Part shown: piece by piece, positions 9,535 to 51,684 of the stretch | Numbering within the stretch: position 1 is the first letter of the stretch | Layout of the letters: every line of letters starts with the position of its first letter | The notes under the pieces: model-generated | The model's database searches: none | The model's input: only the letters and a program-made list of their open reading frames with translations | What the model was told of the DNA's origin: nothing | Program-made: the position numbers and the translations under genes | Assembly (NCBI RefSeq): GCF_026151205.1 | Contig: NC_087072.1 | Coordinates: 18,646,103 to 18,710,102, forward strand | DNA: 64,000 nt | Direction of reading: 5' to 3' | Source of the DNA: Bolinopsis microptera | Taxonomy: Eukaryota > Ctenophora > Tentaculata > Lobata > Bolinopsidae

Positions 9535-12500
9535 GTGATTTTCATTATTTCTTCCCGAGCGTTAAAATGAATAGATCATATTGTATTCTGGCAGGGGATA
9601 GCACGCTAAAACTAGATTGAAACTTATTTGAGTGATATAACTTAATTTCGTGTAATAAGGTAGTCGGAACTTCAAGGTTGTTTTAAGAAATGGTATATTG
9701 TCACCTACGGTAATCTGTTATCTGTAATGATTAATTATGATTGAGTTCGAGTAATGCACTATTTTATGATTCTATTTCAGATTACACGAATTCAGAAATA
9801 GGGAAATGCACAAACGTCGGCTATAACTTACCAGGAACACACACCCACAAAGATAGCCTGAGCGGTATCAAGGTTTAAGAGCTTTATCATAGTATCATTC
9901 TTAAAAGTCATCTTAACAAGAATTGCGCCGGTTAGCGGACGCTAGATTTCCATCGCCACGTAATTAATTACAATTAACAATTGTTTCATATTGGTTAAAT
10001 TACCAAATTTCTTTGGGGCGTTACAGAGAACAAAATGGAGGGATTGCCGTTGTCAATTATTTGAATCGAAAGTTAAACGACCGGACACCGTAGCGCAGCC
10101 TGTGCGGTGATATGCATGATGCAGTTAAAAGGACATCTGTCCGACAGCGACTCTTGTCCGACTCAATATGTTACCAGAAAAAAAGACATCTGTCCGAAAT
10201 TGTGATCTAATTGCAATAAGACACATTTCCATTTTCCAATTAGAGACATGATCTGAACTGAGATATGACCTGAGCTGAACTCTACCATAGTTTATTTTCA
10301 TTTGCTGTCAAAAATTGGACAATAGTTTAAATGTTATATAAATAACTGATCTCCATACCGCTCTCCTGTGTGTAATGTAGGCTGTGATGTGATTGGCAGC
10401 TTGTTACACTGTTACAGCTTGTTAGTGTACGGCTAGCATGATCCTGTCCTCAAATAGTCAATCACGTATCGATGGATCAGATCTCAATGGATCAAATCAG
10501 CATTATATTAGGACTGTGGGAGCAACGTCACAAGATTACACGTGAGCTTGTGAAATACGAACGTGATCTGAAATTGCGAATGTGATCCGAAAGTTGGACA
10601 GATGTCGCCAAAAACGACTCCTATCTGACAGCGACTCTTGTCCGAAACCGGTAATTCGACTGTCGGACAGATGTCACCCAATCAAATCTGTGGTAGTTAA
10701 TACAATGTGAATCATAATAAAATGTATCGTTCATTTCGTCTAAATATAATGAATCAATCTATGGGCAATCATGTTCAACATGATAGTCATAACATCATAA
10801 TTTATACAACAACATAACGGATTACTAATATCGGGTTGCACCAAGCACCCACAACAAAATGAGAAGTTTGTATCGAATTGACAGCTGAAAAACTAATAAA
10901 ATAACCCTCTCAGGGTTGTGTGGACGAATGTGTAAGTATGGGTGCTCAGACCTGCGCTGGGGTGAACTGGAAAAACAATGTTGTCAGATGCTTCCTTAAG
11001 AATCCTGGTTTCGGAGATAAGGTAGCGAAGGAAGGTGTAAACTCTGTGGATTTAAGCTGTCTCGAGAATAATCGTAAAGGTCAGTTGAAAATACCCTACG
11101 CTTTAGATTTTTTTAAAGTTATCGAACAAATTTATCTTTATCATTATTTCGGAGCTTGGTCGTGCGTTATTCTGGGCTAAAAGGTATACTGATTTGTTTA
11201 GGAATGTTGTTCCAAGCCGAATATAACACTGTTACGTATTTTAGTTGATGGTGGATGGAGTGACTATGGAGAGTGGTCAGACTGTTCTAAGGAATGTGGA
11301 ACAGGATCCCAGTCAAGAACCAGAACCTGCAAAAATCCTGCTCCTGCTCACGGTGGAACTGAATGTGTAGGAGAAAACACTGAGACTCAAGATTGCAACA
11401 CACAAAGCTGCCCTGTTGATGGCGGATGGAGTGACTATGAAGAGTGGTCAGACTGTTCTAAGGAATGTGGAACAGGATCCCAGTCAAGAACCAGAACCTG
11501 CACAAATCCTGCTCCTGCTCACGGTGGAACTGAATGTGTAGGAGAAAACACTGAGACTCAAGATTGCAACACACAAAGCTGCCCTGTTGATGGCGGATGG
11601 AGTGACTATGAAGAGTGGTCAGACTGTTCTAAGGAATGTGGAACAGGATCCCAGTCAAGAACCAGAACCTGCACAAATCCTGCTCCTGCTCACGGTGGAA
11701 CTGAATGTGTAGGAGAAAACACTGAGACTCAATATTGCAACACAGAAAGCTGCCCTGTTGATGGCGGATGGAGTGACTATGGAGAGTGGTCAGACTGTTC
11801 TAAGGAATGTGGAACAGGATCCCAGTCAAGAACCAGAACCTGCACAAATCCTGCTCCTGCTCACGGTGGAACTGAATGTGTAGGAGAAAACACTGAGACT
11901 CAAGATTGCAACACACAAAGCTGCCCTGTTGATGGCGGATGGAGTGACTATGAAGAGTGGTCAGACTGTTCTAAGGAATGTGGAACAGGATCCCAGTCAA
12001 GAACCAGAACCTGCACAAATCCTGCTCCTGCTCACGGTGGAACCGAATGTGTAGGAGAAAGCTCAGAGGCTCAGGAATGCAACACACGTGACTGTACAGG
12101 TAAATATACAACCAACCTATTGTATATTTTATATCATCCTCAGCCCGTCCCAGTTTCCCAGTTTCTCTTATAAAAACGTGCAATACCCGGCGCAGCATGA
12201 GCAGCTATACCGATTATCCCCAGCGATCCCGATCCTTTTATACAATACTCAACGAAGATATCGAAATAAATTTAAGTATCAATCACCACAATATAGATCT
12301 AGTTTACATCCGTGATATATACTAATTACTAACCACCAACTAAAGGTGACACAAATTGCAACTGGGCATCTTTAGTGGTTTTAAAACTTACGTGTTCAAT
12401 CACTATTCATATCAAAATTTGTAACACATAGATATAATTAAAATTAAACAAACCTTGATGAGGTTCAGGACCTCTTTCTCCGTTTCAAATTTCGTGTAAT

Positions 12501-15297
12501 AAGGTGGTCAGAACTTCAAAGTTGTTTTAAGAAATGGTATATTTTCACCTAATCTGTTATCTGTAATGATTAATTATGATTGAGTTCGTGTAATTTGCAC
12601 TATTTTATGATTCTATTTCAGATTACACGAATTCAGAAATAGGGAGATGCACAAACGTCGGCCAAAACTTACCAGGAACGCACACCTACGAAGATGGTCT
12701 GAGCGGCATCAAGGTTTAAGAGCTTTATCATTCTTAAAAGTCATTCTTAAAAATTGACCATGAAATACCTATAATTTCAAATTCCTTAGAATGAGTATCA
12801 TTATTATTTTTACTGTTTTCAGTGCGGACTGCGGGATAAATTGTCTCCATCGATATCATAAACTGAGTTTTATCTCAGAGGCGAGGTTGAGCACTGAAAT
12901 CAGTTTGAACAACTTTATCTGGAGGAACAATTAACTACCTAGCGTATGTAGCCAGTAACTGGTATCAGGTAATTGACAGCTGAAAAATTAATATAATAAC
13001 CCTCTCAGGGTTGTGTGAACAAATGTGTTAGTATGGGTGCTCAGACCTGCGCAGGGGTTAACTGGAAAAACAGTGTTGTCAGATGCTTCCTGAAGAATCC
13101 TGGTTTCGGAGATAAGGTAGCGAAGGAAGGTGTAAACTCTGTGGATTTAAGCTGCCTCGAGAATAATCGTAAAGGTCAGTTGAAAAAATACCCTACGCTT
13201 TAGCTTTTTTTTAAAGTTATCGAACAAATTTATCTTTATCATTATTCCGGAGCTTGGTCGTGCATTATTCTGGACTACCAAGTATACTGATTTGTTTAGA
13301 AATGTTGTTCTAAGCCGAGTTTATCACACTGTTACGTATTTCAGTTGATGGTGGATGGAGTGACTATGGAGAGTGGTCAGACTGTTCTAAGGAATGTGGA
13401 ACAGGATCCCAGTCAAGAACCAGAACCTGCACAAATCCTGCTCCTGCTCACGGTGGAACTGAATGTGTAGGAGAAAACACTGAGACTCAAGATTGCAACA
13501 CACAAAGCTGCCCTGTTGATGGCGGATGGAGTGACTATGGAGAGTGGTCAGACTGTTCTAAGGAATGTGGAACAGGATCCCAGTCAAGAACCAGAACCTG
13601 CACAAATCCTGCTCCTGCTCACGGTGGAACTGAATGTGTAGGAGAAAACACTGAGACTCAAGATTGCAACACACAAAGCTGCCCTGTTGATGGCGGATGG
13701 AGTGACTATGGAGAGTGGTCAGACTGTTCTAAGGAATGTGGAACAGGATCCCGGTCAAGAACCAGAACCTGCACAAATCCTGCCCCAGCTCACGGTGGAA
13801 CTGAATGTGATGGAGAAAGCTCAGAGGCTCAGGAATGCAACACACGTGACTGTACAGGTAAATATACAACCAACCTATTGTATATTTTATATCATCCTCA
13901 GCCCGTCCCAGTTTCCCAGTTTCTCTTGTAAAAACTTGCAATACCCGGCGCGGCATGAGCAGCTATACCGATTATCCCCAGTGATCCCGATCCTTTTATA
14001 CAATACTCAACGAAGATATCGAAATAAATTTAAGTATCAATCACCACAATATAGATCTAGTTTACATCCGTGATATATACTAACCACCAACTAAAGGTGA
14101 CACAAATTCCAACTGGGCATCTTTAGTGATTTTAAAACTTACGTGTTCAATCACTATTCATATCAGAATTTGTAACACATGCATATAATTAAAATTAAAC
14201 AAACCTTGATGAGGTTCAGGACCTCTTTCTCCGTTTCAAATTTCATGTAATAAGGTAGTCGGAACTTGCAATATGTCCGACGTTATCAACTTCAAAGTTG
14301 TTTTAAGAAATGGTATATTTTCACCTAATCTGTTATCTGTAATGATTAATTATGATTGAGTTCGTGTAATTTGCACTATTTTATGATTCTATTTCAGATT
14401 ACACGAATTCAGAAATAGGGAGATGCACAAACGTCGGCCAAAACTTACCAGGAACGCACACCTACGAAGATGGTCTGAGCGGCATCAAGGTTTAAGAGCT
14501 TTATCATTCTTAAAAGTCATTCTTAAAAATTGACCATGAAATACCTATAATTTCAAATTCCTTAGAATGAGTATCATTATTATTTTTACTGTTTTTGGTG
14601 CGGACTGCGGGATAAATTGTCTCCATCGATATCATAAACTGAGTTTTATCTCAGAGGCGAGGTACAGGTTGAGCACTGAAATCAGTTTGAACAAATTTAT
14701 CTGGAGAAACAATTAACTACCTAGCGTATGTAGCCAGTAACTGGTATCAGGTAATTGACAGCTGAAAAACTAATAAAATAAACCTCTCAGGGTTGTGTGG
14801 ACGAATGTGTTAGTATGGGTGCTCAGACCTGCGCAGGGGTTAACTGGAAAAACAGTGTTGTCAGATGCTTCCTGAAGAATCCTGGTTTCGGAGATAAGGT
14901 AGCGAAGGAAGGTGTAAACTCTGTGGATTTAAGCTGCCTCGAGAATGATCGTAAAGGTCAGTTGAACAAATACCTTACGCTTTAGCTTTTTTTTAAAGTT
15001 ATCGAACAAATTTATCTTTATCATTATTCCGGAGCTTGGTCGTGCATTATTCTGGACTACCAAGTATACTGATTTGTTTAGAAATGTTGTCCTAAGCCGA
15101 GTTTATCACACTGTTACGTATTTCAGTTGATGGCGGATGGAGCAGCTATGGAGGGTGGTCAGAGTGTTCTAAAACTTGTGGAGGAGGATCCCAGTCAAGA
15201 ACCAGAACCTGCACAAATCCTGCTCCTGCTCACGGTGGAACTGAATGTGATGGAGAAAGCTCAGAGGCTCAGGAATGCAACACACGTGACTGTACAG
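9468..15297 (+). CDS. Secreted modular PAN/apple-like + thrombospondin type-1 repeat protein
   Basis: Ten exons with clean AG/GT borders and cyclic phases: 9468-9534, 9781-9872, 10914-11079, 11245-12099, 12622-12713, 13009-13174, 13345-13857, 14398-14489, 14791-14956 and 15127-15297. Exon 1 encodes a signal peptide ([15 protein letters not shown]). Three tandem modules follow, each with two exons forming a six-cysteine PAN/apple-like domain and one exon of TSP1 repeats (5, 3 and 1 units of exactly 171 bp). The phases (1-0, 0-1, 1-1) let modules be added without a frame change. The real TSP1 frame contains no Met, so ATG-based ORF calling misses it. Introns are nearly identical between modules, so duplication is recent. 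Secreted or matrix adhesion is inferred from the domains. The last coding exon is not established: reading through the donor stops at about 15370, and an acceptor near 15670 could give a short tail. Confidence 0.85.
9781..12099 (+). CDS. Module 1: PAN-like domain + 5 TSP1 repeats
   Basis: Exons 9781-9872, 10914-11079 and 11245-12099. The PAN-like part carries CTNVG, CVDEC, CAGVNW, CFLKN and CLEN. The TSP1 exon holds five 57-residue units starting at 11245, 11416, 11587, 11758 and 11929. Each unit has [10 protein letters not shown], the SQSRTRTC strand and a terminal CNTQSCP or CNTRDCT. The intron between the two PAN exons is 1041 bp against 295 bp in module 2, because a repeat-rich insertion replaced part of it. 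Confidence 0.85.
10132..10675. mobile_element. Non-autonomous inverted-repeat element (MITE-like) in an intron
   Basis: Both ends carry GACATCTGTCCGACAG in inverted orientation, and the related CGACTCTTGTCCGA block occurs near each end. No coding frame lies inside. The homologous introns of modules 2 and 3 lack it, so it inserted after the modules duplicated or was lost from the others. Confidence 0.65.
12622..13857 (+). CDS. Module 2: PAN-like domain + 3 TSP1 repeats
   Basis: Exons 12622-12713, 13009-13174 and 13345-13857 have the same lengths as module 1 except for the TSP1 exon, which is 513 bp (3 x 171). Substitutions relative to module 1 are few, for example CVNKC for CVDEC. The last repeat ends CNTRDCT, as in every module, so repeat number changed inside the exon while both exon edges stayed fixed. 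Confidence 0.85.
14398..15297 (+). CDS. Module 3: PAN-like domain + 1 TSP1 repeat
   Basis: Exons 14398-14489, 14791-14956 and 15127-15297. The single 171-bp TSP1 repeat is the most divergent copy ([18 protein letters not shown]). Unlike the others it fits the POFUT2 O-fucosylation consensus at CSKTCGGG. It ends on a phase-1 donor identical to those of modules 1 and 2, so either another exon follows or the transcript reads through to a stop near 15370. Confidence 0.82.
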
Positions 15298-15874
15298 GTA
15301 AATATACAACCAACCTATTGTATATTTTATATCATCCTCAGCCCCTCCCAGTTTCCCAGTTTCTCTCATAAAAACTTGCAATACCCGGCGTGGCATGAGC
15401 AGCTATACCGATTATCCCCAGCGATCCCGATCCTTTTATACAATACTCAACGAAGATATCGAAATAAATTTAAGTATCAATCACCACAATATAGATCTAG
15501 TTTACATCCGTGATATATACTAATTACTAACCACCAACTAAAGGTGACACAAATTGCAACTCAGAATTTGTAACACATGCATATAATTAAAATTAAACAA
15601 ACCTTGATGAGGTTCAGGACGTCTTTCTCCGTTTCAAATTTCGAGTCTAGCGTTCGGACGATCTCTGAAACAGAAGAAGTAGGTAAAAGACAAGAGAATC
15701 ATTCTAAATCCTTTTTAATTTAACTTTTCCTACTTTAACTACTGCTGTTTGTACTTAAATTTCCTCCTAGTGAATATCAATCGTTTCCCTGGCTAGAAAA
15801 ATATTAAATTGTTCAATGCAATGTTCTGCAACAGGTTATTAATATGCGATAACAGAGATAAGCTCTAACCCTGC

Positions 15875-30815: not shown

Positions 30816-30844
30816 TTTTGCAGCCGTATAAAACGGTTTTACAT

Positions 30845-31035
30845 AAACCTAATCCCAACCCTAACCTTCACATAGCCATGTTCTACGCGTACTACGTGAC
30901 GCTCTTGTTTCACAAGCCTTCGGCGGTCGCGCGCTAAGGAAAGCGAGAAGGCTCTGGTTAGAGCAAACCCTAACCCCAACCATAACCCCAAAGCTATCCA
31001 TAACCCTTATCACAACCCTAACCCTATTAGGGTTA
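30845..31035 (+). repeat. Interstitial degenerate CCCTAA/CCCAAC repeats
   Basis: Clusters of AACCCTAACCC-type hexamers at 30850-30875 and 30965-31025, ending with CCCTATTAGGGTTAG directly before copy A of the LINE. They resemble the animal telomere repeat but are too degenerate to be a terminal array. Confidence 0.7.
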
Positions 31036-32595
31036 GCGGAAACAAATGAAGGTCCTGAATCCAGCAGTTTGTATCAATTAACTGGATACAACAGTTTCTA
31101 CCAAAACACAATACCAGATAAAAAAAAGGGCACTGGAGTGGCTCTCTATGTTTGTGACACTCTTAGTGCCAGAGTAAACGGCAATGTATCCCATATCACT
31201 GAACATTTAGAAACTCTTTTTGTGGCCGTAAGTAGTACAACTTCCCCAGTAACAGTTGGTGTAATGTACCGTCCTCCAAGTGGTAATGTCAATGTTGCAC
31301 TATCTGAACTCTCTGACATCCTTGACAGTCTCCCCAAGTGTAGTTACCTAGCGGGTGATTTTAACATTGATTTACACGATAAGAATAGCACAATCGTACA
31401 ACGCTATGAAGAAATACTATTAAGTAAAGGATTTTTCCCCCTAATTTCGTTAGCAACACATGAGAAACCAGGCTGCAAAGCATCCTGTATTGATAACATA
31501 ATAACTAACGACGTAGAGAGTATAGTAGCTTCTGGAATACTGACTGACCGTATATCACACCACTCACCCATCTTCCAAATCTTTGATAGAAACTTGGACT
31601 CTAGCAGAATTGACCTGAAATACAAACAGTATTATGATTACAACAAACCGAATGTAAAAGCTTTTTTACAGACTCTGGAACATGATCTCAATAATAATGT
31701 TATCGACAATTTTACAACATTTCACGACATATTTAAGGACTGTATAGATAGAACTTGTAAGTTAGAAACCCCTAAATGCTCTAAAAGAACAGCACTGAAC
31801 AACCCATGGATTACACCAGACCTTGGCCTTGTGGGCAAAATTTCATATCAGCACGAACTTTACGATAAATGGGTAAAGGTCAGAAAAGTTAAATGTAAAT
31901 TTGGGGAAATTGAAAATAAAGGGGGGACATGCCAATGCCCAATATGTTGCTCAAAACGTGACAAGTATAAAAAATACAGTGACTGCAGGCGGAAGGTCAA
32001 AAAAGATCGCCGCAATGCTCAATCTAAGTTCTATGGTGGAAAATTTGCAGAGTTGCACGGAAACAGTAAAAAGACGTGGGAATTAATTAACCAAATACGG
32101 GGTAAACGAAAACGACAAACCAAACCTCTATTTACTATCAATAATGAAAAAATTACTAATCGTAGGGTAATAGCTAATGAGTTTAATAAGTACTTTGTCT
32201 CCCTAGCTTCTAATCTTAACGAGGCATACAATGAAATCGGCGAACTATTAATTAATGGCATCCCCAGTATCTATGACTACCTACCAAAATCCAACACGAC
32301 CAGTATTTACATGCATGATTGTACAATCGATGAAGTATGTAAAATAATATCAGAATTGAAAAATGGCAAATCGTCTGATATCCCAATACATGTTGTAAAA
32401 GCGTCATCCAGAATTATCGCCCCCCTATTATCTGTACTATACAATGAATGTTTGAAGGAGGGAATATTCCCGGACGATTTAAAGATTGGCAGGATCAGTC
32501 CCATATACAAGAAAGAAAATGAAGAATTACTTGAAAACTATAGACCAGTCTCTACCTTAGCCGTATTTGGTAAGTTATTCGAGAAAATTATATAT
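31036..32595 (+). mobile_element. CR1-like LINE copy A, 5' fragment
   Basis: Homology to copy B ORF2 begins at about 31036 (ETNEGPESSSLYQ), so the element is 5'-truncated inside the endonuclease. It runs to 32595, where copy B is inserted inside the RT at EKIIY|SRLYS. The remainder resumes at 40028. Both halves are open in frame, so copy A was probably still intact in this region when it was hit. Confidence 0.88.
31039..32595 (+). pseudogene. LINE copy A ORF2: endonuclease C-terminal part, linker, RT start
   Basis: The frame is open to a stop at 32625. It shows APE endonuclease motifs YRPPSG, AGDFNID, CIDNIITND and SHHSPIF. A Cys-rich linker follows (CQCPICCSKR), then the RT entry segment (GKSSDIPIHVVK, ISPIYKK, LENYRPVSTLAVFGKLFEK). 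The final ~10 codons belong to the inserted element. The N-terminal catalytic Asn of the endonuclease is missing with the 5' truncation, while the Glu of ETN is at the very edge. Confidence 0.88.
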
Positions 32596-32648
32596 GTGGA
32601 CAGTATTGGCATGCGAACTGCGTAGGCCTTAATGGACTAAATAGTAAG

Positions 32649-34556
32649 ATGCTCAATGATCTCACACAATGGCCCTGTCCCTTTTGTTTTGTATCACCTA
32701 TTGCTACTATATCCACCCAAGTTGACGTCTGTCACGTCTGCAGAAACACTTTATCACTACAGCAGTCAAACCTGGAAGCAGAAACAGCACTCATTTCATC
32801 ACAACTAGAACCCTTAGCCAATTGTTGCAAGCTCATTAAGGATATTGACTTTGTTCAATTCAGTAACAGAATTGACACACTTGGCCAATTTGACCAACGC
32901 CTTCAGCACCTCCTCCTAAAAGACCAGCCCTGGAAATCCTTAGACTCAGATATAAAGCTCCTTTCAGACCAGTTGGCCACTACCCTAGATAAATCACCCA
33001 CACCACCACTCAACACCACAATTGAAAACCTCACAACTGCCTTACAAACTCATGACAAGACTTTCCACTCACTCACCAACCAACTAAATGAACTCAAACA
33101 GCAAGTCACATCCCTATCATCAGACATGACCACCTCACCAACATCAGATCAATCTGAAAAGCTCCTTGAACGGGTGTCACAAGAGCTCAGAGAGGTATGC
33201 AAGCAGGAGCTGAAGCAATCAACAGCAAATCTGCAGCATTCCTCAGAGCATCCACTGACCCTCCCTGGATTACAAGAGCTCAACACCCAGGTTGTAACCC
33301 AGCTGCCCCCACACAGTCGCCCGCCTGTCTCTAAACACACTCTCGATTTTATTGATGAAGAGACAGAGAAGGATCTCATAGAAATGCTTGATTCTCGCAC
33401 ATCTGAGTTCAAGAATGAGAATGGACGATCTGTTCTGGCTTTTGGAGAAAGATATCACTACACTGGCACAAAATCATCACCCTCATCCGACCAACTCCCA
33501 GACCAACTCCAATCACTCATAACACAACTGAACAATGATCATCCAAACTCTCCACCTGTCAACAGCATTCTCATCAATCGGTATGATGGTCACTCAAGCT
33601 TCCTTCCACAACACTCAGACAACGAACCCCTCATTCACCCTGACTCATCAGTACACACACTTTCACTAGGTCACCATTGCACAGTCACTTTCAGCAAGAC
33701 TGGCACCACAGAACCCTATCACAACCAGTCTTGTCCACCACGATCACTATACACTATGACCAGGGCAAGTCAGGATTTGTACGAACACAGAATTGAATCA
33801 GGATCTGTCGACTCCGGTGTTCGATACTCTGTGACCCTCAGATCTGTTAGTGCTCTAAACCGTGCTTCTACATGCATCATGGGAGATTCGAACACTGGTG
33901 GACTTAAATTTGGACTTGATCCTAAGAGATCCTTTGGAAAGTTCCTTCCTGGAAAACAAGTCTTCGCACCTACTGTAGACCACATTGACCCATACGAATC
34001 CTGCGGCTACAAAAACACTGTCATTCTCTGCGGACTCAATGATATTAGGCAGGATAATGTCAAAACTCCATCTGACATCAAACAAGTGTTCAATAAATTT
34101 ACTAGTAAAATTGCTGAAATTCAAGCTGTCAATAAAAAAACTAATGTTTATATATGTCCGCTGCTGCCAACTAAATGTATTGATTTAAATAGAAGAGTCA
34201 ATTTCTTTAACTATCTGATACAAACCCAGCTTCTCCCTTTCAACTTTGGTGTGAGACTGGTAGAAGGGTTTCCAAGCTTTGCTGATGAGAACGGGCTATT
34301 AAGCCAACACTTGTCAAAAAGGTTGACGAAGTTCCAGAAACCTGATTACTTACACCTCAATTGGAGGGGGGTTGCAAAATTAGCAGCAATCATTAAAAAT
34401 ACTATTCTTCTTAGAGTTAATGGTGGTCGAGACAGACGCAGAGCTGGACGAGGGGGGAATCAGGTGGACTCCACATCATTTCGTGACATAACTGCACGCT
34501 CTCTTCCTGCTGATAAACGAGTATCTGGTGCTCCTGACGGCTACCAACCGTCATGA
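32649..34556 (+). CDS. LINE copy B ORF1p: zinc-finger-like / coiled coil / AlkB dioxygenase / SGNH esterase
   Basis: 635 aa. Residues 10-31 hold two CxxC pairs (CPFC, CHVC). Residues 60-190 are helical and Gln/Leu-rich, probably a multimerising coiled coil. Residues ~230-400 match AlkB-type 2OG-Fe(II) dioxygenases: NSILINRY, iron ligands H322 and D324 (HSDNE), distal H380 (LYEHRIE) and the 2OG-binding Arg motif VRYSVTLR (R392, R398). Residues 408-580 match SGNH/GDSL esterases: block I GDSN (S414), block III CGLND (N464), block V DYLHLN (D566, H569). The C-terminus is basic (GGRDRRRAGRGG). Known: esterase and PHD domains occur in CR1-like LINEs, and AlkB domains act on alkylated nucleic acid. 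Inferred: ORF1p binds and may repair or demethylate its own RNA or cDNA. The ATG at 32649 is the first in the element after a short leader. Confidence 0.9.
   Translation: MLNDLTQWPCPFCFVSPIATISTQVDVCHVCRNTLSLQQSNLEAETALISSQLEPLANCCKLIKDIDFVQFSNRIDTLGQFDQRLQHLLLKDQPWKSLDSDIKLLSDQLATTLDKSPTPPLNTTIENLTTALQTHDKTFHSLTNQLNELKQQVTSLSSDMTTSPTSDQSEKLLERVSQELREVCKQELKQSTANLQHSSEHPLTLPGLQELNTQVVTQLPPHSRPPVSKHTLDFIDEETEKDLIEMLDSRTSEFKNENGRSVLAFGERYHYTGTKSSPSSDQLPDQLQSLITQLNNDHPNSPPVNSILINRYDGHSSFLPQHSDNEPLIHPDSSVHTLSLGHHCTVTFSKTGTTEPYHNQSCPPRSLYTMTRASQDLYEHRIESGSVDSGVRYSVTLRSVSALNRASTCIMGDSNTGGLKFGLDPKRSFGKFLPGKQVFAPTVDHIDPYESCGYKNTVILCGLNDIRQDNVKTPSDIKQVFNKFTSKIAEIQAVNKKTNVYICPLLPTKCIDLNRRVNFFNYLIQTQLLPFNFGVRLVEGFPSFADENGLLSQHLSKRLTKFQKPDYLHLNWRGVAKLAAIIKNTILLRVNGGRDRRRAGRGGNQVDSTSFRDITARSLPADKRVSGAPDGYQPS
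34553..34556 (+). promoter_or_regulatory. ATGA stop-start overlap between ORF1 and ORF2
   Basis: ORF2's ATG (34553-34555) overlaps ORF1's TGA (34554-34556) in the +2 frame. This is the classical arrangement for coupled termination-reinitiation of a downstream ORF. No other Met occurs early in ORF2 before the PHD cysteines, so this start is required to keep the PHD finger. Confidence 0.8.
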
Positions 34557-36376
34557 CTACTCTAACTAAAGAGGTATGTAAACACTGCTGCAAGGGTATC
34601 TATGTGGGCCAAGCCATAGTCGAGTGTTCCGAATGTAACCATGCAACTCATCATAAATGCTACAATATTGTCAATACCGATTTATGCGGTAACTTTCTCT
34701 GCAATACATGTGTAAATCTTGCTGTAAAACGATACAACCCGTTCAAATATGATATTTCCGACGAAGAAATCGATCTAGACGATACGATAACTAAGCTCTC
34801 GCAAATTTTAAACAGTTGTTCTCAGCTTAACAGAAGTCAAATTAATCAAACTCTAGAAACTTTAACCGAAGGTCAAATGTCAATGATGTTTCAAAACATA
34901 GACGGTAACAAAAGTAACTTTGATACTATGTGTATAGATCTTCGCCGATATAACAAAAAGTTTTCCATAATTGCACTTGCTGAAACAAATGTAGGACCTG
35001 AATTAAGTAGTTTGTATCAATTAACCGAATACAATAGTTTTTACCAAGCAACCTTTCGAGAGAAAAAGAAGGGCACCGGAGTTGCAATTTATATCCACCA
35101 GTCACTAAATGCAACAATCGATAATACCCTCTCCTATGTGAGTGAAAACCTAGAAATCCTATTTTTAAGATTCAACAGTGGTAACTCAAGCACCTTTGTT
35201 GGAGTTTTATACCGCCCTCCGAGTGGCAATTTTGACTTAGCGCTAAGTGAACTAGCCGACACTCTGGACAAAGTCCCCAGACACTCGTATATAGCTGGTG
35301 ACTTTAACATCAATCTTCACGGCGACAGCAACAAGGTTGCTAAATATGAACACGTTCTTTACAGTCGAGGCTTCTATCCTCTCATATCTGTAATGACCCA
35401 TGAAAAACCCGGCTGTATTCCTTCATGCATCGATAACATCATTACCAATGATTTAGACAACATTATAACATCTGGCACATTCAAAGACAAAATCACACAT
35501 CATCACCCCATATTCTTAGCACTCAACACACACCTTGACCAGAACGATTGCAAGATTAAGTATGAACAGTTTTATGACTACTGTAACTCTAACGTAGATA
35601 AGTTCACCGACAAACTATCCAATAGTCTTGATAACACTGTAATAAATTGTTTTGATACCTTTGCTGACACATTTAACGTTGCTTTTGACGAATGTTTCAA
35701 GTTAGAAACCCCGAAATGTACAAAACGCACTATGCAAAACAATCCATGGATTACACCAGCAATTATAACATCAATAAATCACTGTCACGAACTATACGAA
35801 AACTGGGTCAAAGCTCGCAAAGTCAAGTGCAATCTAGGAGATACTGACACAAAAGGTGGCTTCTGTCACTGCGCAGTATGTAACAAAAAGCGCAGTGAGT
35901 ACTTAACTTATAAATATTATAGAAAAGAACTCAAAGTTATACGTGAAAAGGCTCAAACTTCGTACAATATGGGTAAATTTAATGAAGTTCAAGGTGACAG
36001 TAAGAAAACATGGCAACTAATCAATAAGATACGCGGCAAAGGGAAACGAGAAATTAAACCCCCGTTTGTTATTAATAATGAGAAAATAATGAACCGTAGA
36101 ATTATAGCTAACGAATTTAATAATTACTTTGTATCTCTTGCCCCTAAGTTGAATGAATCATACAGTACAACCGGTCAAATTAGACTAAGTCCAATTCAAT
36201 GCTTTACGGACTACTTACCAAGGCCAAATACCTCAAGTATATTTCTCAGCGATTGTACACCAGAAGAAATAGAGAAAATCATTAGCGAACTCAAGAATGG
36301 AAAAGCTAGTGACATCCCTATTCACGTCATCAAACGAACAGTCTGTCTATTGTGTCATCAATTTTACCTAAGTTAA
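34553..36376 (+). pseudogene. LINE copy B ORF2, N-terminal part: PHD finger + APE endonuclease + linker
   Basis: Starts MTTLTKEVCKHC. Residues 9-53 form a complete C4HC3 PHD finger (C9, C12, C25, C28, H33, C36, C50, C53). The APE-type endonuclease follows: FQNIDG, AETN, GTGVAIY, YRPPSG, AGDFNIN, CIDNIITND and THHHPIF, with Asn, Glu, Asp and His catalytic positions all present. A Cys/His-rich linker (CHCAVCNKKR) and the RT entry (GKASDIPIHVIK) come next. Reading is lost at 36336 where LINE C is inserted, and the last ~13 codons to the stop at 36376 are foreign. The protein continues at about 36985. Confidence 0.88.
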
Positions 36377-36984
36377 GTCAGAATTCACACACCTTATGTA
36401 CCTCAAATAGCCCACTGGCAAAATCATTTTTCTACAGAACTCATATACTGTGGAATGGACTCCCTTTACAGGTAAGACAGATTGTGTCTACTAGTGTTTT
36501 CAAAGCTGAGGTCACTAAGCATCTATGGAAATGTTTATTGGATAGTGAAACAACAGCCTAGCCTAGTCTCTTTTCTCCCCATATTATTATTATTTTTGTT
36601 TTATTAATTTTTTATCTACCTTCCTATACTTTCAACATCATATCACACTTCACCCGCACACCTCACACATTAATGACCATATCAGACCTGTATCTAATGT
36701 ATCTGGAATTTGACGTATTGAAATACCAATTTTGACTATATATCCACAGTTATTCACCATGGATTTGTTTGTTATTAAATAGTTTTTCATAAATTTTTGG
36801 ATTTAGATTAATTCGATGTAATGGGTCCAAGTTACTGCGGACATAGTTCACTATGTGTTTACCGTGTTTGGGTGCCCATCATATTTTACAGATGGGGGCG
36901 ATATTTTGAACGATTCTATTTTATATTAATCTATTGCTGTACTCTGTAAAATTTGAAAAGTATTTAATAAAAAATAAGCCCACT
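36336..36984 (+). mobile_element. LINE C: 5'-truncated 3' tail of another LINE
   Basis: Inserted in the RT of copy B. It carries the last ~70 codons of a LINE ORF2 (FFYRTHILWNGLPLQV, stop at 36561), then ~420 bp of 3' UTR ending in an A-rich tail (AATAAAAAATAA). Comparison with copy A suggests about 20 bp of target (codons ASSRIIA) were deleted on insertion. Confidence 0.78.
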
Positions 36985-38527
36985 CCTGTCAGTATTATTT
37001 AATGAACACATGAGAAATGGAACTTTTCCAGACCGACTGAAAATTGGTAAAATTAGCCCTATATACAAAAAAGACGGTACAGAATATCTCGAAAACTATA
37101 GGCCAGTATCTACCCTAGCTGTGTTCGGAAAGTTATTTGAGAAAGTAATCTACTCCCGTTTGTACAGTTTTCTTGTGTCGCAGAACGTTTTGTTTGAGAA
37201 CCAGTTTGGTTTTAGGAAGAGTCACTCAACTAACCACGCCCTTAATTACTCAGTTGACTATGTAAACTCCCATATAAAGGAAAAGCAACATGTATTAGGT
37301 ATCTTTATTGACTTATCAAAGGCATTTGACACTATCAGTCACGATAAACTTCTCATAAAACTTGACAAATATGGTATAAGAGGTAACGCAAACGAGCTTA
37401 TTGGATGTTACCTATCTAACAGACAGCAGTACGTTTCAGTTTTAGGTGAGGAATCTGATAAACTCCCTGTTATTTGTGGAGTACCACAAGGTAGTGTTTT
37501 AGGACCGCTACTGTTTATAATTTACATAAACGATATCTATAACTCATCAGACCTAGGAAAATTTATACTTTTCGCTGATGACACCAATATATTTGTAGTC
37601 GACAAATCTGTCCAGAATCTCTACCAAAAAGCTAATACTATAATGAATTCTGTTTACAATTATATGAAATGCAATCTTCTCCACATTAACATCAAGAAAT
37701 GCTGTTACATTCACTTTACACCAGGAAAGAAGGATGTAACTAGTAGTAGTAGTAATAGTAATGATCTTATTTTAACGTTGAATAACACAGTCATTAAACG
37801 TGTTGATGAAACTAAATTCCTCGGCGTTATTATAGATAAAAACCTTAACTGGAAACCTCATACTGCATATCTTAGTTCTAAATTAAAGTGTGAAGTCGGT
37901 AAACTCTGCCGTATGAGAAGATTTATACCTAAAGAGCTGTATAATGACCTCTACCACACCCTCTTCGAATCTCATCTAGGATATGGGATCTCAGTGTGGG
38001 GAGGCATATCGAACAATAGGCTTGAACCAATATTTAAAATTCAAAAAAAGTGCACTCGTATTCTATTTGGTGATCAAGAGGCATACAGTAATAAGTTCAA
38101 AACATGTGCTAGAACCCGCCCAATTGGATCTCAAAAACTTGGAGCCGACTTCTATAAACGAGAATCAAGTAAACCCCTTCTCAGCAGAAACAAAATACTC
38201 TGCGTGCATAATTTGTATAAGTACCACTGTCTACTTGAAATGTTTAAAATAATCAAACTTCACACTCCAATACCGATGTACAATTTATTTCAAAAGTCAC
38301 CCCGACGTGATAACTACTTTATTAACCCCGCTGCAACCAATTTGTTTGTATATAAAACCTCGAATATGTGGAATAAATTCCTTAAACCTTCTAGTAAGAT
38401 TGACTTCTCGTCCCCAATTGCACTTGTTAAAGGTCGCATTAAAACTATGCTACTCAATGCTCAAAAAGCTGGAAACACTGATGAATGGTCAGAACTCAAC
38501 TTTGATGGAAATGACATGTGCCTATAA
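36985..38527 (+). pseudogene. LINE copy B ORF2, reverse transcriptase and C-terminal part
   Basis: Resumes at PLLSVLFNEH. All RT motifs are present: ISPIYKK, ENYRPVSTL, FGFRKSHST, motif A LSKAFDTI, motif B GVPQGSVLGPLLF, motif C FADDTNIF and the thumb region KFLGVIID. It ends ELNFDGNDMCL at the stop. No frameshift or in-frame stop occurs, so loss of function is due only to LINE C. Confidence 0.88.
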
Positions 38528-40027
38528 TAAGAACATACAAACTAGTCCATATAGATTTCATACTACACACACAAAATAACACACACAATACACACCACAG
38601 TCAAACATAGAAACTATATATTCACACATATAACACAGAACACTGATCAGCTCACCCGCTTTACACTAGTGTCTGGACTTGTCTGGAGTGTACGTCTGGA
38701 ACGTGGGACGGACTCACAAATATATTGTGTAAACGTACGGCGCGAAACTTAAATATTGTATAACTCTATCATTTCATTACCCAGCGTGATTTACCGCGCC
38801 AGATTAATGAAATGACGCCGCGCTATATCCGTGAACCTACCGTCACTTATATCTTATATTTTATATTTCGTATCTCTTACTACGTAACGCGAAATTAAGT
38901 TGTATCACACTCCCGGTTTTGGACCCCAATGTTAACCTTGCAGCAACTGTGTCAGCCCAATATACTCTAGAAGTATGATCACACTTATTTTAATGAACAA
39001 AAGACCCATAATTAATATAATCAGATACTCGTCAACAGCAGCAGTTTCCGTCCGTGTGATGTGTTGTCCTCCTCCTTTCTGTGTCCCCGTCGTTTTGTTT
39101 TGTGAAATGTATTGTAGTAGTGTTTTAATATTTAAATCGAACGCAACTCAATAGTTAATAATAACAAACACAAATACTATTTCAAATAATTGATTAATAT
39201 CGATTTATACGAACCAAACATTAATTATTTTTTAATAACCTTTTATATATGTGTTAAACGATCCAGGGCATATCTAAAATTCGATAATGAACTTCATATA
39301 TTATTAGTGCCGCGTGCTGATAAATATTCTGGGAATCAATCCACCCAATCGTGGCGATAACATATTTTTGTGCTTGGCCGGTTTTAGGTTTGAGTTTGTG
39401 CTCCAAAAGTGGTAAATCGGGTGCTAGTAAAGCTCTTGCAGGCAACTGGCTCCTTTTGCCAACTGCTTTTGGTTTAAGCGCGGACTCACATTTGGAACTG
39501 GCACTGGTATAATTGTAATATCCTACGAAGTCAGCATGCTATATTATTTTGCAAAAATCGTTTAATATCTTGACAATATTTAAAGTTTATGGATTTAGGT
39601 TTAGGCGCGGCGCACTGCTTATATGTTATAGCTCATTCAGCTTCTGTTTTCAGCGATGTGTTGCTACACACTGTATAGCATGTGGAACAAGCGCGGTGCC
39701 GCGCCTAAGCAGCAAAAGAGTTATTTATTTTAAAATTTATTTTTGTATCTCAAAAATGATGTAAAGTTTTTAATATGACGTAGAATTAAAGCTATTTCCG
39801 TACAGCCTAAGTGCTAAGCATGCTCGTTAGATAAACTATAAACAAGGAACATAACATGCTAGCTTTCTTTATTTCTTTATTTTTGTAAGTCGTGTCGGCT
39901 GACATCTTGGGTTGTACTGGATGTAACAAGTTTATTATCGGATGTCTACTTATATTTATTATGATATCATTATTCATTGTAATGGCAATAAAATTTAAAT
40001 TTTGTTTTACTTAAATTTTGTTTTACT
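38528..40027 (+). other. 3' UTR of LINE copy B
   Basis: Non-coding and pyrimidine-rich in parts, with a CA-rich start (38560-38640). A ~110-bp foldback lies at 39601-39709. The end is a duplicated TTAAATTTTGTTTTAC unit abutting copy A. Part of this interval may be later insertions. Confidence 0.65.
39601..39709. repeat. Small GC-ended foldback element
   Basis: TTAGGCGCGGCGCACTGCTT at the left is mirrored by an inverted GCTTAGGCGCGGCACCGC at the right, with about 70 bp between. No open frame. Confidence 0.6.
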
Positions 40028-41399
40028 TAGTAGGCTATACAGCTTTTTCCAGTCACAAAATATGATCTATGAAAATCAGTATGGATTCCGTAAAAATCAC
40101 TCTACTAGTCATGCCCTGAATTTCTCAGTGAATTATATAGAATCATGCCTTAATAAAAAGCAGCACGTGCTCGGAATATTCATTGATCTAAGCAAAGCAT
40201 TCGATACCATCTCAGCTGACAAATTACTGAGTAAGCTAGATAATTACGGAATTCGAGGCAATGCCAACAAACTCATTGCTAGTTATCTCTCTAATAGATA
40301 TCAATACGTCTCGGTCCTAGGAGAAGATTCTGACAAGCTTCCAGTTCTCTTTGGAGTACCCCAGGGATCTTGTCTTGGTCCGTTACTATTTATTATTTAT
40401 ATCAACGACCTATATAGGGCAACTGAACTAGGCAAGTTCATTCTATTTGCTGACGATACAAATATATTTGTCGCGGATGAATGTAAGATAAAGTTATATG
40501 AACGAGCAAACCAAATTCTCAAACTGGTACAACTGTATATGAAATGTAATCTCCTGCATATTAACATTAAGAAATGCTGTTACATTCACTTTAAACCAAC
40601 GAATAGAAAAAGCAAGGTAGAACATAATGAAGAAGAACACGTACTTACTCTAAACAATGTAGTAATAAAGCAAGTCAAAAAGGTGAAGTTTCTTGGTGTT
40701 ATTATTGATGATCAGCTTAAATGGGATGCTCATATACGGTCGCTCAACACAAAGCTGAAATGTGAAAGTGGGAAAATTTGTAGAATACGGCACATTATTC
40801 CAGAAAAACTCTACAAAGAACTGTACTACACACTATTTGAATCACACTTGCGATTTGGGATATCAGTATGGGGTGGCCTTAGTAACAACAGGCTTGAACC
40901 AATATTTATCACTCAGAAGAAATGTGTTAGAATACTATTTGGTAACCGAGAGGCGTACTTAGAAAAGTTTAGAACTTGTGCTAGAACACGAAGTAAAGAC
41001 AAGCAAAAATTAGGAAGCGACTTCTATGAAAAACAGCACACAAAACCGCTATTTAAGAAAAATGGTTTACTAACCATACACAGTTTGTTCAAACACACAT
41101 GTTTATTGGAAATGTTCAAAATCAATAAATTAGAATCCCCAGTCCCACTCCTAAATCTATTTAACAGATCATCAAGACGTGCTGATCGATTCATCACTCC
41201 AACCCCATCCACCTCCTTCATATATCAATCGACAAAAATGTGGAACGATTGTAGAAACACTGCTAGCAATATCAACTTCTCTACATCAACGAACCTTGTG
41301 AAATCCACAATAAAAAAGGAGTTACTCGGCATGCAGTACAGGTACGACGAAATAGATTGGTGTGAACTGAACTTCGATTCCAACGAACTGAAATTCTAA
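40028..41399 (+). pseudogene. LINE copy A ORF2, reverse transcriptase and C-terminal part
   Basis: Continues copy A in frame: SRLYSFFQSQN, YGFRKNHSTSHA, motif A LSKAFDTI, motif B GVPQGSCLGPLLF, motif C FADDTNIF, KFLGVIIDDQ and the end NFDSNELKF. It is collinear with copy B 37157-38527 throughout but clearly diverged, so the two are relatives and not recent sisters. Joining 31036-32595 to this segment restores an uninterrupted RT. Confidence 0.9.
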
Positions 41400-48475: not shown

Positions 48476-48751
48476 ATCATTGAATAAATTTTAACAATCG
48501 ACATGTTTTTCTTCTGATTCAAATTGTATCACACTGATTAAATGTATTGATTCGAATCTATATTTGCACGTCTTAATTCATGATTGTACGGGTACTCGGG
48601 TAGCTTCTTGATCCTATTGATCTTGTCAGCAAAACATGATTCTGTTGAATAATCTATGGCAACCTTTGTATCGATAATTTTCGCTGAGTTTCGCAAATTT
48701 CTAATTCCAATGTGGAACATTTAATTTAAAGTTTGTTACATCAAATATTTC

Positions 48752-48753
48752 AG
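48752..48753 (+). promoter_or_regulatory. Splice acceptor of a 5' UTR intron of the kinesin gene
   Basis: TATTTCAG ends at 48753, four bases before the family-consistent ATG (48757). An upstream in-frame TTG extension to 48733 would cross this acceptor and is not used as the start. Confidence 0.6.
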
Positions 48754-48756
48754 AGG

Positions 48757-51684
48757 ATGGCCGAGACAATCAAGGTAGCAGTGAGGGTTCGGCCCTTCAA
48801 CATGCGAGAACAGGAGAGAGGAGCTAAGCTGGTGATCGACATGCAGGGCAGCCAGACAATCATCAACCACCCTAAAGGGAACGTGGAGCCGAAGAAGTTC
48901 CATTTTGATTATAGTTATTGGTCACACGATGGGTATAAAGAGGACGCTGAGGGCTACATGCACCCGGATGATGACCGGTACTGTGATCAAGCGAGGGTCT
49001 TCAAAGATTTGGGCGAGGGGGTCCTCTTTAATGCTTGGGCTGGCTATAACTGTTCCTTGTTCGCTTACGGGCAGACGGGTTCTGGTAAGTCCTACTCGAT
49101 TGTGGGGTACGGAGCTAATAAAGGTGTTATTCCAGTTGTTTGTCAGAGACTGTTCTCTAAAATTGAGGAGAAAGTTGCGGCAAAACCACAGGATGAATAT
49201 GAAGTTAATCTTGCTATGATTGAAATTTACAACGAACAAGTGAGAGACTTGTTAAATCCTGCTTCATTAAAGCTCAAAGGTGGACTTAAGATTCGGGAAC
49301 ATCCAAAGAAGGGTTTCTATGTAGACAAGCTAACCACACACGCTGTCGGAAGTTACGAAAATATCGAAATGAAAATGGACAACGGGACAAAAAACAGGAC
49401 AGTCGCTGCGACAGCTATGAATGCAACGAGTAGCAGAGCCCATACAATCGTTGCTTTAACATTTGTCCAGAAGACCAAAGAGGAAGGCCAACAGGCTATG
49501 ACAAAAACATCAGTAATAAACTTAGTAGATTTAGCTGGCAGTGAGAGGGCAGCTTCTACAGCGGCAACTGGTGACCGGTTAAAAGAAGGGGCTGCTATCA
49601 ACCAATCGCTCTCTACGCTCGGTAACGTAATAGCTGCTCTTGCTGATGTAGCCGCTGAAGGCAAGGCTCCTGGTAAATCAAAGGTAATTGTCCCTTTCAG
49701 AGACTCTTCCCTGACTAAACTCCTCAAGAACGCTCTCGGAGGAAACAGTAAAACAGTTATGATGGCAGCCGTATCTCCAGCTGACATCAATTATGATGAG
49801 AGCTTGTCGACGCTTAAATTTGCTGACAGAGTCAAAAGAATTAAAACTGTTGCTGAGGTCAATGAGTCTCCGACAGAGAAGTTAATCAGGGAGCTAAGAG
49901 AAGAAAACGCGAAATTGATGCATATGTTAGGTGGATCAGGGATACCTGATGTAGCCATGATAGCTGAGGCGAGTACTGAGGTATCTGAAGAAGAGAAGGA
50001 GAAGATGAGAAAAGAAATAGAAGACGAGTTACGAGCACAAATGATGCAGAATCATATGGAACTAGAAGACTCGGAAAAAAGTGCTTCGCAGAAATTACAA
50101 GAGATGGAAAAAGCCATGGAGGAAGAACGAAAGAAGAAACAGTCTGACACAGAGAAGAGACACAAAAAACCTTACCTTTGGAATTTAAACGAAGATCCAG
50201 CTCTCTCGGGTGTTGTGTGCCATCTCATTGAGCGAACCAAAGTTCTAATTGGTAAAGGAGAAAAGTGTCAAGTAAGACTACAGGGTCTCAGTATTATGGA
50301 CGAGCATGCTTTGATTGAAGTTGATAAACAGCTTATCTATATTACTGTTCGCGAGAACGCCAAAGTGACTTTGAACGGTGATCCGTTAACGACGCGAACT
50401 GAGTTACACCACAATGACAGGATCCTGTTTAGTGCGGGTCACGTGTATGTGGTTCATCATCCCTACCAGTTCAAGAAGGCTAACAAGGCAGGGAAAACTT
50501 TCGAACCGGTTACTTGGGATGTGGTTCAGACTGAGATCGCGGAGAAATCTGGCTTCGATGTTGATAGAAAAGGAAAATCACCAGAGGAGCTCCTGCTCCA
50601 AGAGGATCTTATCTCGTTGATGCCGATGGTTAACGAAGCAAATGCAATAAGCGTAGAGCTCGACAAGAAGAAGCTGTTCGAGATAGTTCTTGTCGCCCCT
50701 CAGGCCAGAGGTCTTAGTAAGGGAAGAACCGAAGTCATGGTGAAGATTTCTGATTTGATTCATAACAATTCTTGGCTCTGGGATCGTAACAAGTTTATTA
50801 ACCGAAAGTACAAAATGTTGGAAATGTATCAGGGCTATGTCGACGAAGATGCTGATTGGGATCTTCCACAGGATATTGATCCGTTTTATGAAACAGTTGC
50901 TAGTCATGTTTTGATAGGACAAGCTCAAATTCATCTCAAGTGTTTGACTTACCTGATTGGATTTGAAGAAAGTGTGATAATAACTGATTACCAGGCCCAA
51001 GAGAGGGGTTATCTTCAAGTCAATATCGTTCCTCTTAAACAGGATGAAACCCCAATTGAAGATGACGATGACGATTATTTCGTAGAAGAGCCCAATGAAT
51101 TGATCGGTAAAAACATGAAATATAAATTTATCATTGTTGGGGCTAAAGGTCTTCCTCAGAAAATATCCAACGATGTTTACTGTGAGTTCAAACTCTATCT
51201 AGAGGACTCCCCAAACGAAACTGACCATATTAATTCTAAGAATCCTGATTGGAACTGGTCAAAAGTATTTTCTCATTCGCCTGTTACGGAGCAACTGCTG
51301 GAATACCTCAACGAAGAGGTGCTCATCGTAAAAGTTTGGGGGAAACAACGTCTTGAAGATGATTCTAAGGTAAACAAGCTTACTACAAAGGAATTGAAAT
51401 CACTGAACGAGAAAGAAAAGCTCACCTCATACATGAAAAAAATGGAAGGTGCTGGCGGAGGTTTCGATATGGCCACAACAGTCCGGAAAATAGAGCTCAT
51501 GCACCAAATGGTTACTGAAATTAAAAAAGTTACCGACGACGCGAAAAAGGATGGGAAAACGACAGTAGATGTGGCAGCAATCGATGCTATTCTGACGCCA
51601 GAAAGAATGAAACTGAACGATGTTAGCCAAATGATCCAAGACGAAAAGAAAAATCCCAACAGTCAACTTTGTTGCATTTCTTGA
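48757..51684 (+). CDS. Kinesin-3 motor protein, KIF28/KLP-6-like, single coding exon
   Basis: 975 aa from MAETIKVAVRVRPF. Motor domain residues ~4-365: P-loop GQTGSGKS (105-112), switch I NATSSRAHT (Ala where most kinesins have Ser), switch II DLAGSE (258-263), family motif SLTKLLKNALGGNSKT and neck SPTEKLIRELREENAKL. A short charged coiled coil follows (~420-475), then an FHA domain (~485-580, GKGEKCQVRLQG, HNDRILFSAGHVYVVHHP) and a kinesin-3 C2-like/DUF3694 region (~770-880). Length is close to KIF28/KLP-6 proteins, which transport cargo in neurons or cilia. The end CCIS fits a CaaX prenylation box. The whole CDS is intronless although neighbours are heavily split; an acceptor just upstream implies a 5' UTR intron. 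The downstream neighbour is CFAP95, on the same strand 0.9 kb away. Confidence 0.9.
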   Translation: MAETIKVAVRVRPFNMREQERGAKLVIDMQGSQTIINHPKGNVEPKKFHFDYSYWSHDGYKEDAEGYMHPDDDRYCDQARVFKDLGEGVLFNAWAGYNCSLFAYGQTGSGKSYSIVGYGANKGVIPVVCQRLFSKIEEKVAAKPQDEYEVNLAMIEIYNEQVRDLLNPASLKLKGGLKIREHPKKGFYVDKLTTHAVGSYENIEMKMDNGTKNRTVAATAMNATSSRAHTIVALTFVQKTKEEGQQAMTKTSVINLVDLAGSERAASTAATGDRLKEGAAINQSLSTLGNVIAALADVAAEGKAPGKSKVIVPFRDSSLTKLLKNALGGNSKTVMMAAVSPADINYDESLSTLKFADRVKRIKTVAEVNESPTEKLIRELREENAKLMHMLGGSGIPDVAMIAEASTEVSEEEKEKMRKEIEDELRAQMMQNHMELEDSEKSASQKLQEMEKAMEEERKKKQSDTEKRHKKPYLWNLNEDPALSGVVCHLIERTKVLIGKGEKCQVRLQGLSIMDEHALIEVDKQLIYITVRENAKVTLNGDPLTTRTELHHNDRILFSAGHVYVVHHPYQFKKANKAGKTFEPVTWDVVQTEIAEKSGFDVDRKGKSPEELLLQEDLISLMPMVNEANAISVELDKKKLFEIVLVAPQARGLSKGRTEVMVKISDLIHNNSWLWDRNKFINRKYKMLEMYQGYVDEDADWDLPQDIDPFYETVASHVLIGQAQIHLKCLTYLIGFEESVIITDYQAQERGYLQVNIVPLKQDETPIEDDDDDYFVEEPNELIGKNMKYKFIIVGAKGLPQKISNDVYCEFKLYLEDSPNETDHINSKNPDWNWSKVFSHSPVTEQLLEYLNEEVLIVKVWGKQRLEDDSKVNKLTTKELKSLNEKEKLTSYMKKMEGAGGGFDMATTVRKIELMHQMVTEIKKVTDDAKKDGKTTVDVAAIDAILTPERMKLNDVSQMIQDEKKNPNSQLCCIS

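Follow-up and report, generated by a model that had tools for sequence, protein, structure and literature searches.

A long interspersed nuclear element (LINE) in the genome of the ctenophore Bolinopsis microptera encodes a first open reading frame (ORF1) in which an AlkB-type 2-oxoglutarate (2OG)/Fe(II) dioxygenase directly precedes an SGNH esterase. It lies in the window analyzed here, a 64,000-nucleotide stretch of contig NC_087072.1. Both domains have well-predicted folds and conserved active sites, the frame is linked to an ORF2 for endonuclease (EN) and reverse transcriptase (RT), and the AlkB domains sampled from LINE ORF1 proteins form one clade. The frame is the ORF1 of a 5'-truncated LINE whose full-length relatives encode a PHD finger, a helical region, AlkB and SGNH, followed in the window by an EN/RT ORF2; we see about an even chance for the explanation as a whole, in which the AlkB domain would strip RT-blocking base methyl groups within the ribonucleoprotein particle (RNP) of the element. 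With AlkB and esterase in one ORF1, the element may be able to clean or protect its nucleic acid, RNA or DNA, by chemical means during copying. Ctenophores are one of the deepest animal branches.

The ORF1 protein of the window (P0001) corresponds to an uninterrupted frame of 635 codons at 32649-34556 on the forward strand, to which all other parts of the two LINE copies described below also belong. A first-pass annotation had reported this frame correctly as open; its start has to be moved, the frame extending 5' past 32649 as far as 32595, which is the beginning of a 5'-truncated insertion. Read from 32595, the upstream portion is CGQYWHANCVGLNGLNSK-M, and the same stretch occurs in relatives, for example in P0004 before 'MLNDLTQW'. 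Because the element is truncated in the middle of ORF1 and both the frame and its relatives continue upstream, the ATG at 32649 encodes an internal Met. ORF1 of this copy thus spans 32595-34556, open from the truncation point, with 32595-32690 reading CGQYWHANCVGLNGLNSKMLNDLTQWPCPFCF. Full-length relatives are longer by about 110 N-terminal residues, which complete a PHD finger; the window retains its C-terminal half (32595-32687), the remainder having been removed by the truncation. The CxxC/CxxC N-terminus of the first-pass annotation thus consists of the remnant of this PHD finger and of an additional CxxC (C28 and C31; 32730-32741) immediately behind it; of the 53 sequences that have a residue at each of these two positions, 41 have Cys. 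Downstream follow a helical region taken as a coiled coil (residues 32-197; 32742-33239), the AlkB-type domain (residues 221-402; 33309-33854), the SGNH esterase domain (residues 403-590; 33855-34418), a basic C-terminal tail of low confidence (residues 591-635; 34419-34553) and an ATGA (34553-34556) in which the ORF1 stop overlaps the ORF2 start.

Relatives were sought among 5.8 billion proteins, with scoring confined to the 7984 best candidates by common words. The scored candidates include 57 relatives of P0001, covering at least 94% of the query in 29 of the top 30 cases, measuring 700-800 residues in 34 of the 57 and diverging to about 30% identity; the only named ones (P0034, P0035 and P0045) are from Mnemiopsis leidyi. 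All have the AlkB HxD core except P0057 and P0058, N-terminal fragments that end before it, so that 55 of the 57 retain it. The Mnemiopsis gene model P0045 spans AlkB, SGNH, EN and RT in that order, and shares 49% and 68% identity with the EN and RT parts, respectively, of the ORF2 in the window. Conservation was assessed in a 55-sequence alignment of P0001 with 54 of the 57 relatives, leaving out the two fragments and P0045, whose gene model runs into ORF2; residue counts refer to rows with a residue at the position. Across residues 223-590, 27 of 368 columns are invariant (at least 45 rows), including both iron-ligand His, the Asp, both Arg, D413-S414-N415, N464 and H569; S323, G412, G462 and D566 are not among them. 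At E<=0.01, Pfam identifies 2OG-FeII_Oxy_2 in 54, GDSL lipase in 20 and PHD in 17 of the 55 aligned sequences. Judged from the alignment, this degree of conservation exceeds chance, and the conserved catalytic residues rule out a chance frame. The active sites of both enzymes are conserved among the aligned relatives; the basis for regarding both cores as under selection, as the first-pass annotation did, is this agreement from family to family. Outside the protein search, no DNA relatives were confirmed in viral contigs and tblastn against phages gave no match, while bacterial and archaeal genomes contain four loci that match in or around the AlkB part with 27-32% identity.

The AlkB-like dioxygenase, initially recognized from intact HSD...H and R...R motifs, is borne out by both hidden Markov model search and structure prediction. 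Residues 266-398 match Pfam 2OG-FeII_Oxy_2 (PF13532) with E 7e-14, a significant match to the AlkB/2OG-FeII families, and structure comparison recognizes an AlkB fold in the AlphaFold2 model, whose blocks have predicted local distance difference test (pLDDT) values of 90-98 across residues 221-590, save for residues 271-280 (73); in the C-terminal tail (residues 591-635) the block means drop to 34-67. The active site comprises H322-S-D324, the distal H380 and the pair R392/R398, which forms the RxxxxxR motif whose final Arg is AlkB-specific (PMC544882). Conservation in the alignment is complete for HxD (55/55), the distal His (54/54), R392 (54/54) and R398 (53/53). As a single sequence, P0001 retrieves ALKBH8 and ALKBH6 from the PDB (phmmer, 2e-6 to 3e-6). 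The family profile matches ALKBH2 (4.6e-13) and ALKBH3 (1.9e-12) better than ALKBH8 (5.6e-9), so that the latter, first by single-sequence search, was discarded as the nearest relative; further matches are a DNA N6-methyladenine demethylase (5.3e-6), ALKBH6 (1e-4), E. coli AlkB (0.009) and ALKBH5 (0.013). Among the best 50 matches, to which all VIA-align and Foldseek results refer, ALKBH2 and ALKBH3 are also the closest solved structures by VIA-align Z, with ALKBH3 tied for best and sequence identities of 16-22%. Moreover, E326 is Glu in 55/55 sequences and aligns with its counterpart in the HRDDE of ALKBH2 in the profile alignment; the resulting H-x-D-x-E signature fits the ALKBH2/3 kind, yet is not specific to it.

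The SGNH esterase, whose GDSN, GLND and DxxH motifs had likewise been read correctly, carries these at residues 412-415, 462-465 and 566-569 (DYLH), respectively. Its Pfam match is weak (PF13472, E 0.05, below the cut-off); the assignment is clear from structure comparison and from the family profile against the PDB, which matches 4c1b with E 3.8e-4. S414 (53/53), N464 (53/53) and H569 (52/52) are kept in every row, with exceptions at D566 (49/51) and at G462 (49/53, Ala in four).

At the N-terminal end, the full C4HC3-like PHD pattern is found in 39 of the 55 aligned sequences and half of it in the window copy; the 16 sequences without the pattern are the truncated P0001, P0028 and a group of 14 (P0041-P0044, P0046-P0049 and P0051-P0056). 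A profile of the family PHD matches histone-reader PHDs, such as that of DIDO1 (4l7x, E 5.4e-7) and those of BPTF, PHF8 and PHF2. The helical region noted earlier is reproduced by AlphaFold2 as helices 32-64, 68-88, 92-113, 121-158 and 166-197, with low to moderate pLDDT, and the AlkB domain separates these long helices from the esterase. At the start of ORF2, 34577-34700 encodes another Cys/His-rich finger; the ORF1 PHD profile does not match it significantly (domain E 0.067, one target).

As the first-pass annotation proposed, the protein is a LINE ORF1 with an AlkB-esterase fusion, which is joined by the ATGA to an EN/RT ORF2 and shared by relatives. ORF2 has the APE-type endonuclease and RT expected of CR1/L2 elements (Jockey superfamily) by Pfam, and ORF1 has the PHD finger found in many, not all, CR1/L2 subgroups. 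For a Gypsy-type pol, no integrase or protease is found among the Pfam hits of ORF2, which consist of endonuclease and RVT_1; long terminal repeats (LTRs) were not specifically sought. By its PHD finger and esterase the element appears to be a CR1/L2-like LINE, the clade name being inferred. A host gene is ruled out by the position of the frame within a LINE, by its ATGA overlap with ORF2 and by the relative joined with EN and RT in a single gene model.

The history of the fusion was examined with quick tree searches, midpoint-rooted and supported by the Shimodaira-Hasegawa-like approximate likelihood-ratio test (SH-aLRT) only, so that a clade denotes one side of a branch. A tree of 100 AlkB domains was derived from 178 proteins, of which 46 were removed by a motif/length filter and two by name (P0045 and P0178), with 30 LINE ORF1s left unselected. 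All 23 LINE AlkBs included fall in one group of 33 rows (SH-aLRT 99), and of its remaining 10 rows six have a GDSN motif behind AlkB. In a tree of the C-terminal half (101 columns), the 37 GDSN-fused rows all belong to one group with six other rows (support 95). A second AlkB group consists of P0095, P0101, P0102, P0104, P0142 and P0143 (SH-aLRT 83; tree of 101 columns); by eye, several of its members have a different SGNH-like stretch (TDSIH, SCGVND) behind AlkB. The AlkB-SGNH fusion may have had either one origin or two.

By sequence comparison, families have swapped the N-terminal and C-terminal halves of ORF1. Compared over windows of 60 residues, P0001 and P0004 share 72-95% identity at starts 1-161 and 28-43% at starts 201-348; P0004 and P0007 are 88-100% identical in the PHD region and then diverge, P0007 being 80-98% like P0009 beyond that point. 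None of five pairs examined shows a comparable break between AlkB and SGNH, and the rise in P0001-P0004 identity from 43% to about 60% at this boundary fits a generally more conserved SGNH domain. Such exchange is in keeping with a published account of CR1/L2 LINEs, in which ORF1 evolves reticulately (PMC4120745).

How the parts might work together can be outlined as follows. The ORF1 protein would multimerise through its helical region on element RNA. AlkB, with ALKBH2/3 as its closest solved structures, would be an active direct-reversal demethylase on nucleic acid bound in the RNP of the element, removing lesions of the 1-methyladenosine/3-methylcytidine (m1A/m3C) kind from the RNA template or the nascent cDNA. 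Base methylations of this type block reverse transcriptases. The PHD finger may read a histone mark and thereby bias the integration site of the RNP, and the esterase may tether the RNP at membranes or release it from them, as proposed for zebrafish ZfL2-1; this last role is inferred by transfer from that element, with the caution that the ZfL2-1 pair H191/S228 is Leu/Cys in the window copy. Taken to its full extent, the outline describes a template-cleaning LINE in which AlkB would clear RT-blocking methylation from RNA or cDNA, both ahead of target-primed reverse transcription and while it proceeds, with eraser, PHD reader, membrane esterase and polymerase in one RNP, a complete picture that we put forward only tentatively.

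Several observations weigh against this outline. Foldseek ranks ALKBH6 first, and the DNA N6-methyladenine demethylase falls between ALKBH3 and ALKBH5 in profile score. The neighbour of the metal-binding Asp, residue 325, is N in 30, D in 14, R in 10 and K in one of the 55 sequences, a variability that may give individual families different substrate contacts. Many of the non-LINE AlkB matches listed likewise have H-S-D-N-E, which therefore does not single out ALKBH2/3. The substrate could be DNA, host tRNA or protein. The esterase, mapped by profile alignment and catalytic-Ser numbering, has L460 and C503 in place of the transposon-specific residues H191 and S228 of ZfL2-1 (PMC3905857), and most members lack this His/Ser pair, which is present in 6/53; rows with more than 60 residues 5' of the window Met have Cys at the S228 position in 37/37 cases with a residue, and the pair is kept in some rows without a long N-terminal extension. 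Finally, relatives drawn from protein databases are a biased sample, since a copy with a broken frame has less chance of entering such a database.

Alternative functions differ in how well they accommodate the profile ranking and the invariant active site. With ALKBH2/3 on top, the ranking favours an m1A/m3C-type substrate over N6-methyladenosine (m6A), and this bears on the proposal that AlkB is an m6A eraser freeing element RNA from host m6A-dependent control, as suggested for orchid Gypsy elements; the family profile being far nearer to ALKBH2/3 (~1e-12) than to ALKBH5 (0.013), we regard such a role as unlikely. The same ranking can be turned towards DNA or a host factor. ALKBH2 is a DNA repair enzyme and ALKBH8 a tRNA enzyme; the former is the top PDB profile match, the latter is third among AlkB homologues, and a PHD finger suggests chromatin contact, all of which would suit repair of target site or cDNA, or a substrate from the host, for example tRNA, instead of element RNA. 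ALKBH3, which is reported to act on RNA too (PMC544882), is nevertheless almost equal by profile and tied for best by structure, and the sequence does not separate ALKBH2 from ALKBH3; we hold this to be the least probable of the enzymatic alternatives.

A mainly structural role would make AlkB a nucleic-acid-binding module, with catalysis secondary, that supplies the structured RNA/DNA-binding domain missing from esterase ORF1 proteins; in those of Repbase, Schneider et al. found no structured RNA-binding domain, which led them to ask by what means RNA is held, and the function of these proteins is unsettled (PMC3905857). The iron ligands and both Arg are, however, invariant in all ungapped rows, which binding alone would not need, and we place this reading just behind the m6A eraser in likelihood. 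A chance or relic origin, in which the frame of a decayed LINE merely runs across a piece of a host AlkB gene that has no function for the element, would suit a truncated copy with an interrupted ORF2; it is contradicted at the family level by 57 relatives, 55 with the AlkB core, and by the invariant catalytic residues of the aligned ones, and its probability is negligible. Demethylation of RT-blocking lesions in the RNP is the reading preferred here, and a conserved AlkB in this position makes it testable whether methylation of RNA or cDNA limits retrotransposition in animals.

The element has inserted into an older, different LINE copy, whose 5' half (EN to RT; 31030-32595, 55% identity to the younger EN) and 3' half (RT; 40029-41399, 62% identity to the younger RT) resume in register across it, the older frame reading ...FEKIIY to 32595 and SRLYSF... 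from 40029. Neither target-site duplication nor base loss is visible at the junctions; CR1-like LINEs have characteristic 3' tails, and their target-site duplications are short or absent. Part 1 of ORF2 (34553-36376), broken near 36340, includes a Cys-rich finger, the APE-type endonuclease (Pfam Exo_endo_phos, E 6.5e-7) and the RT linker; after an insertion of about 630 bp, with approximate bounds set by the alignment break (36341-36973), part 2 (36974-38527) contains the reverse transcriptase with FADD (Pfam RVT_1, E 2.2e-36) and the C-terminal region. The 3' untranslated region (UTR; 38528-40028) terminates in two 16-bp tandem units, AAATTTTGTTTTACTT. With ORF1 5'-truncated and ORF2 interrupted, the window copy is, by its sequence, a dead, non-autonomous insertion.

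By eye, the insertion within ORF2 resembles the C-terminus and 3' UTR of another LINE family. In P0072, an RT frame (...FGKIFEKIIYSRL) is continuous with an AlkB ORF1, and the junction lies some three codons away from the site where the element of the window enters the older RT (between FEKIIY and SRL); this likeness of two junctions (n=2) might reflect a site preference, coincidence or a chimera. Imperfect telomere-like repeats of the CCCTAA type occupy 30840-31030, immediately 5' of the older LINE copy. Elsewhere in the window, 10876-15561 is a satellite-like array, for part of which self-comparison offsets suggest a repeat unit of some 171 bp, and 48733-51684 encodes a KIF28-like kinesin in one uninterrupted frame of 983 codons. 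The kinesin has relatives among ENA, 'lgn' and JGI entries with 64-87% identity, and a EukProt entry of Pleurobrachia bachei (sb/3462902) shares 73% across 64% of the query, whereas matches named as other animals reach 56% at most among the 120 listed of 7852; together with the Mnemiopsis relatives of ORF1, this makes a ctenophore host likely by sequence as well.

Each component of this ORF1 has been described on its own, AlkB in an LTR retrotransposon (PMC9289625), the esterase and the PHD finger in ORF1 proteins of LINEs (PMC4120745, PMC3905857). No description of an AlkB in a LINE is found, by title, opening of the abstract or text passages, among the matches listed from the open-licence PMC literature, and an earlier account may have gone unnoticed; in the main text of a 448-element survey, 'AlkB' and 'dioxygenase' have no occurrences (PMC4120745). 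A close parallel is the type IV esterase ORF1 of CR1/L2 elements such as ZfL2-1, to which the profile match to 4c1b also points, with SGNH at the C-terminus, helices before it and an EN-RT ORF2 after it, and an esterase that binds lipid and hydrolyzes weakly (PMC3905857); unlike ZfL2-1, the present family inserts AlkB between helices and esterase and bears a PHD finger at the front, in addition to the Leu/Cys substitution. Other CR1/L2 ORF1s share the N-terminal PHD finger, whereas the available part of Table 1 of the survey has no row combining PHD and esterase (PMC4120745). Human ALKBH2 and ALKBH3, nearest among solved structures by profile and VIA-align Z, differ in being host repair enzymes and in their low sequence identity.

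Among mobile elements, Gypsy LTR retrotransposons of Phalaenopsis orchids also encode an AlkB-like 2OG dioxygenase, an acquisition described as recent, with m6A activity and located in a separate ORF2 (PMC9289625), in contrast to the esterase-fused AlkB found here in a LINE ORF1, whose family members are down to about 30% identity. AlkB is also carried by an RNA-copying element in the replicases of Flexiviridae and further RNA viruses, with a proposed role in protecting viral RNA (PMC544882), and replicase polyproteins, for example of Little cherry virus 2 and GLRaV-1, are listed as whole entries among the Foldseek matches; the viral domains differ in sitting within polyproteins, and the trees presented here are without named viral sequences. 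A conserved AlkB provides a LINE ORF1 protein of the esterase type with a defined, assayable chemistry, and its parallel to the AlkB genes captured by RNA viruses of plants (PMC544882) and by the Gypsy elements of orchids (PMC9289625) hints at base methylation as a common pressure on elements that copy RNA.
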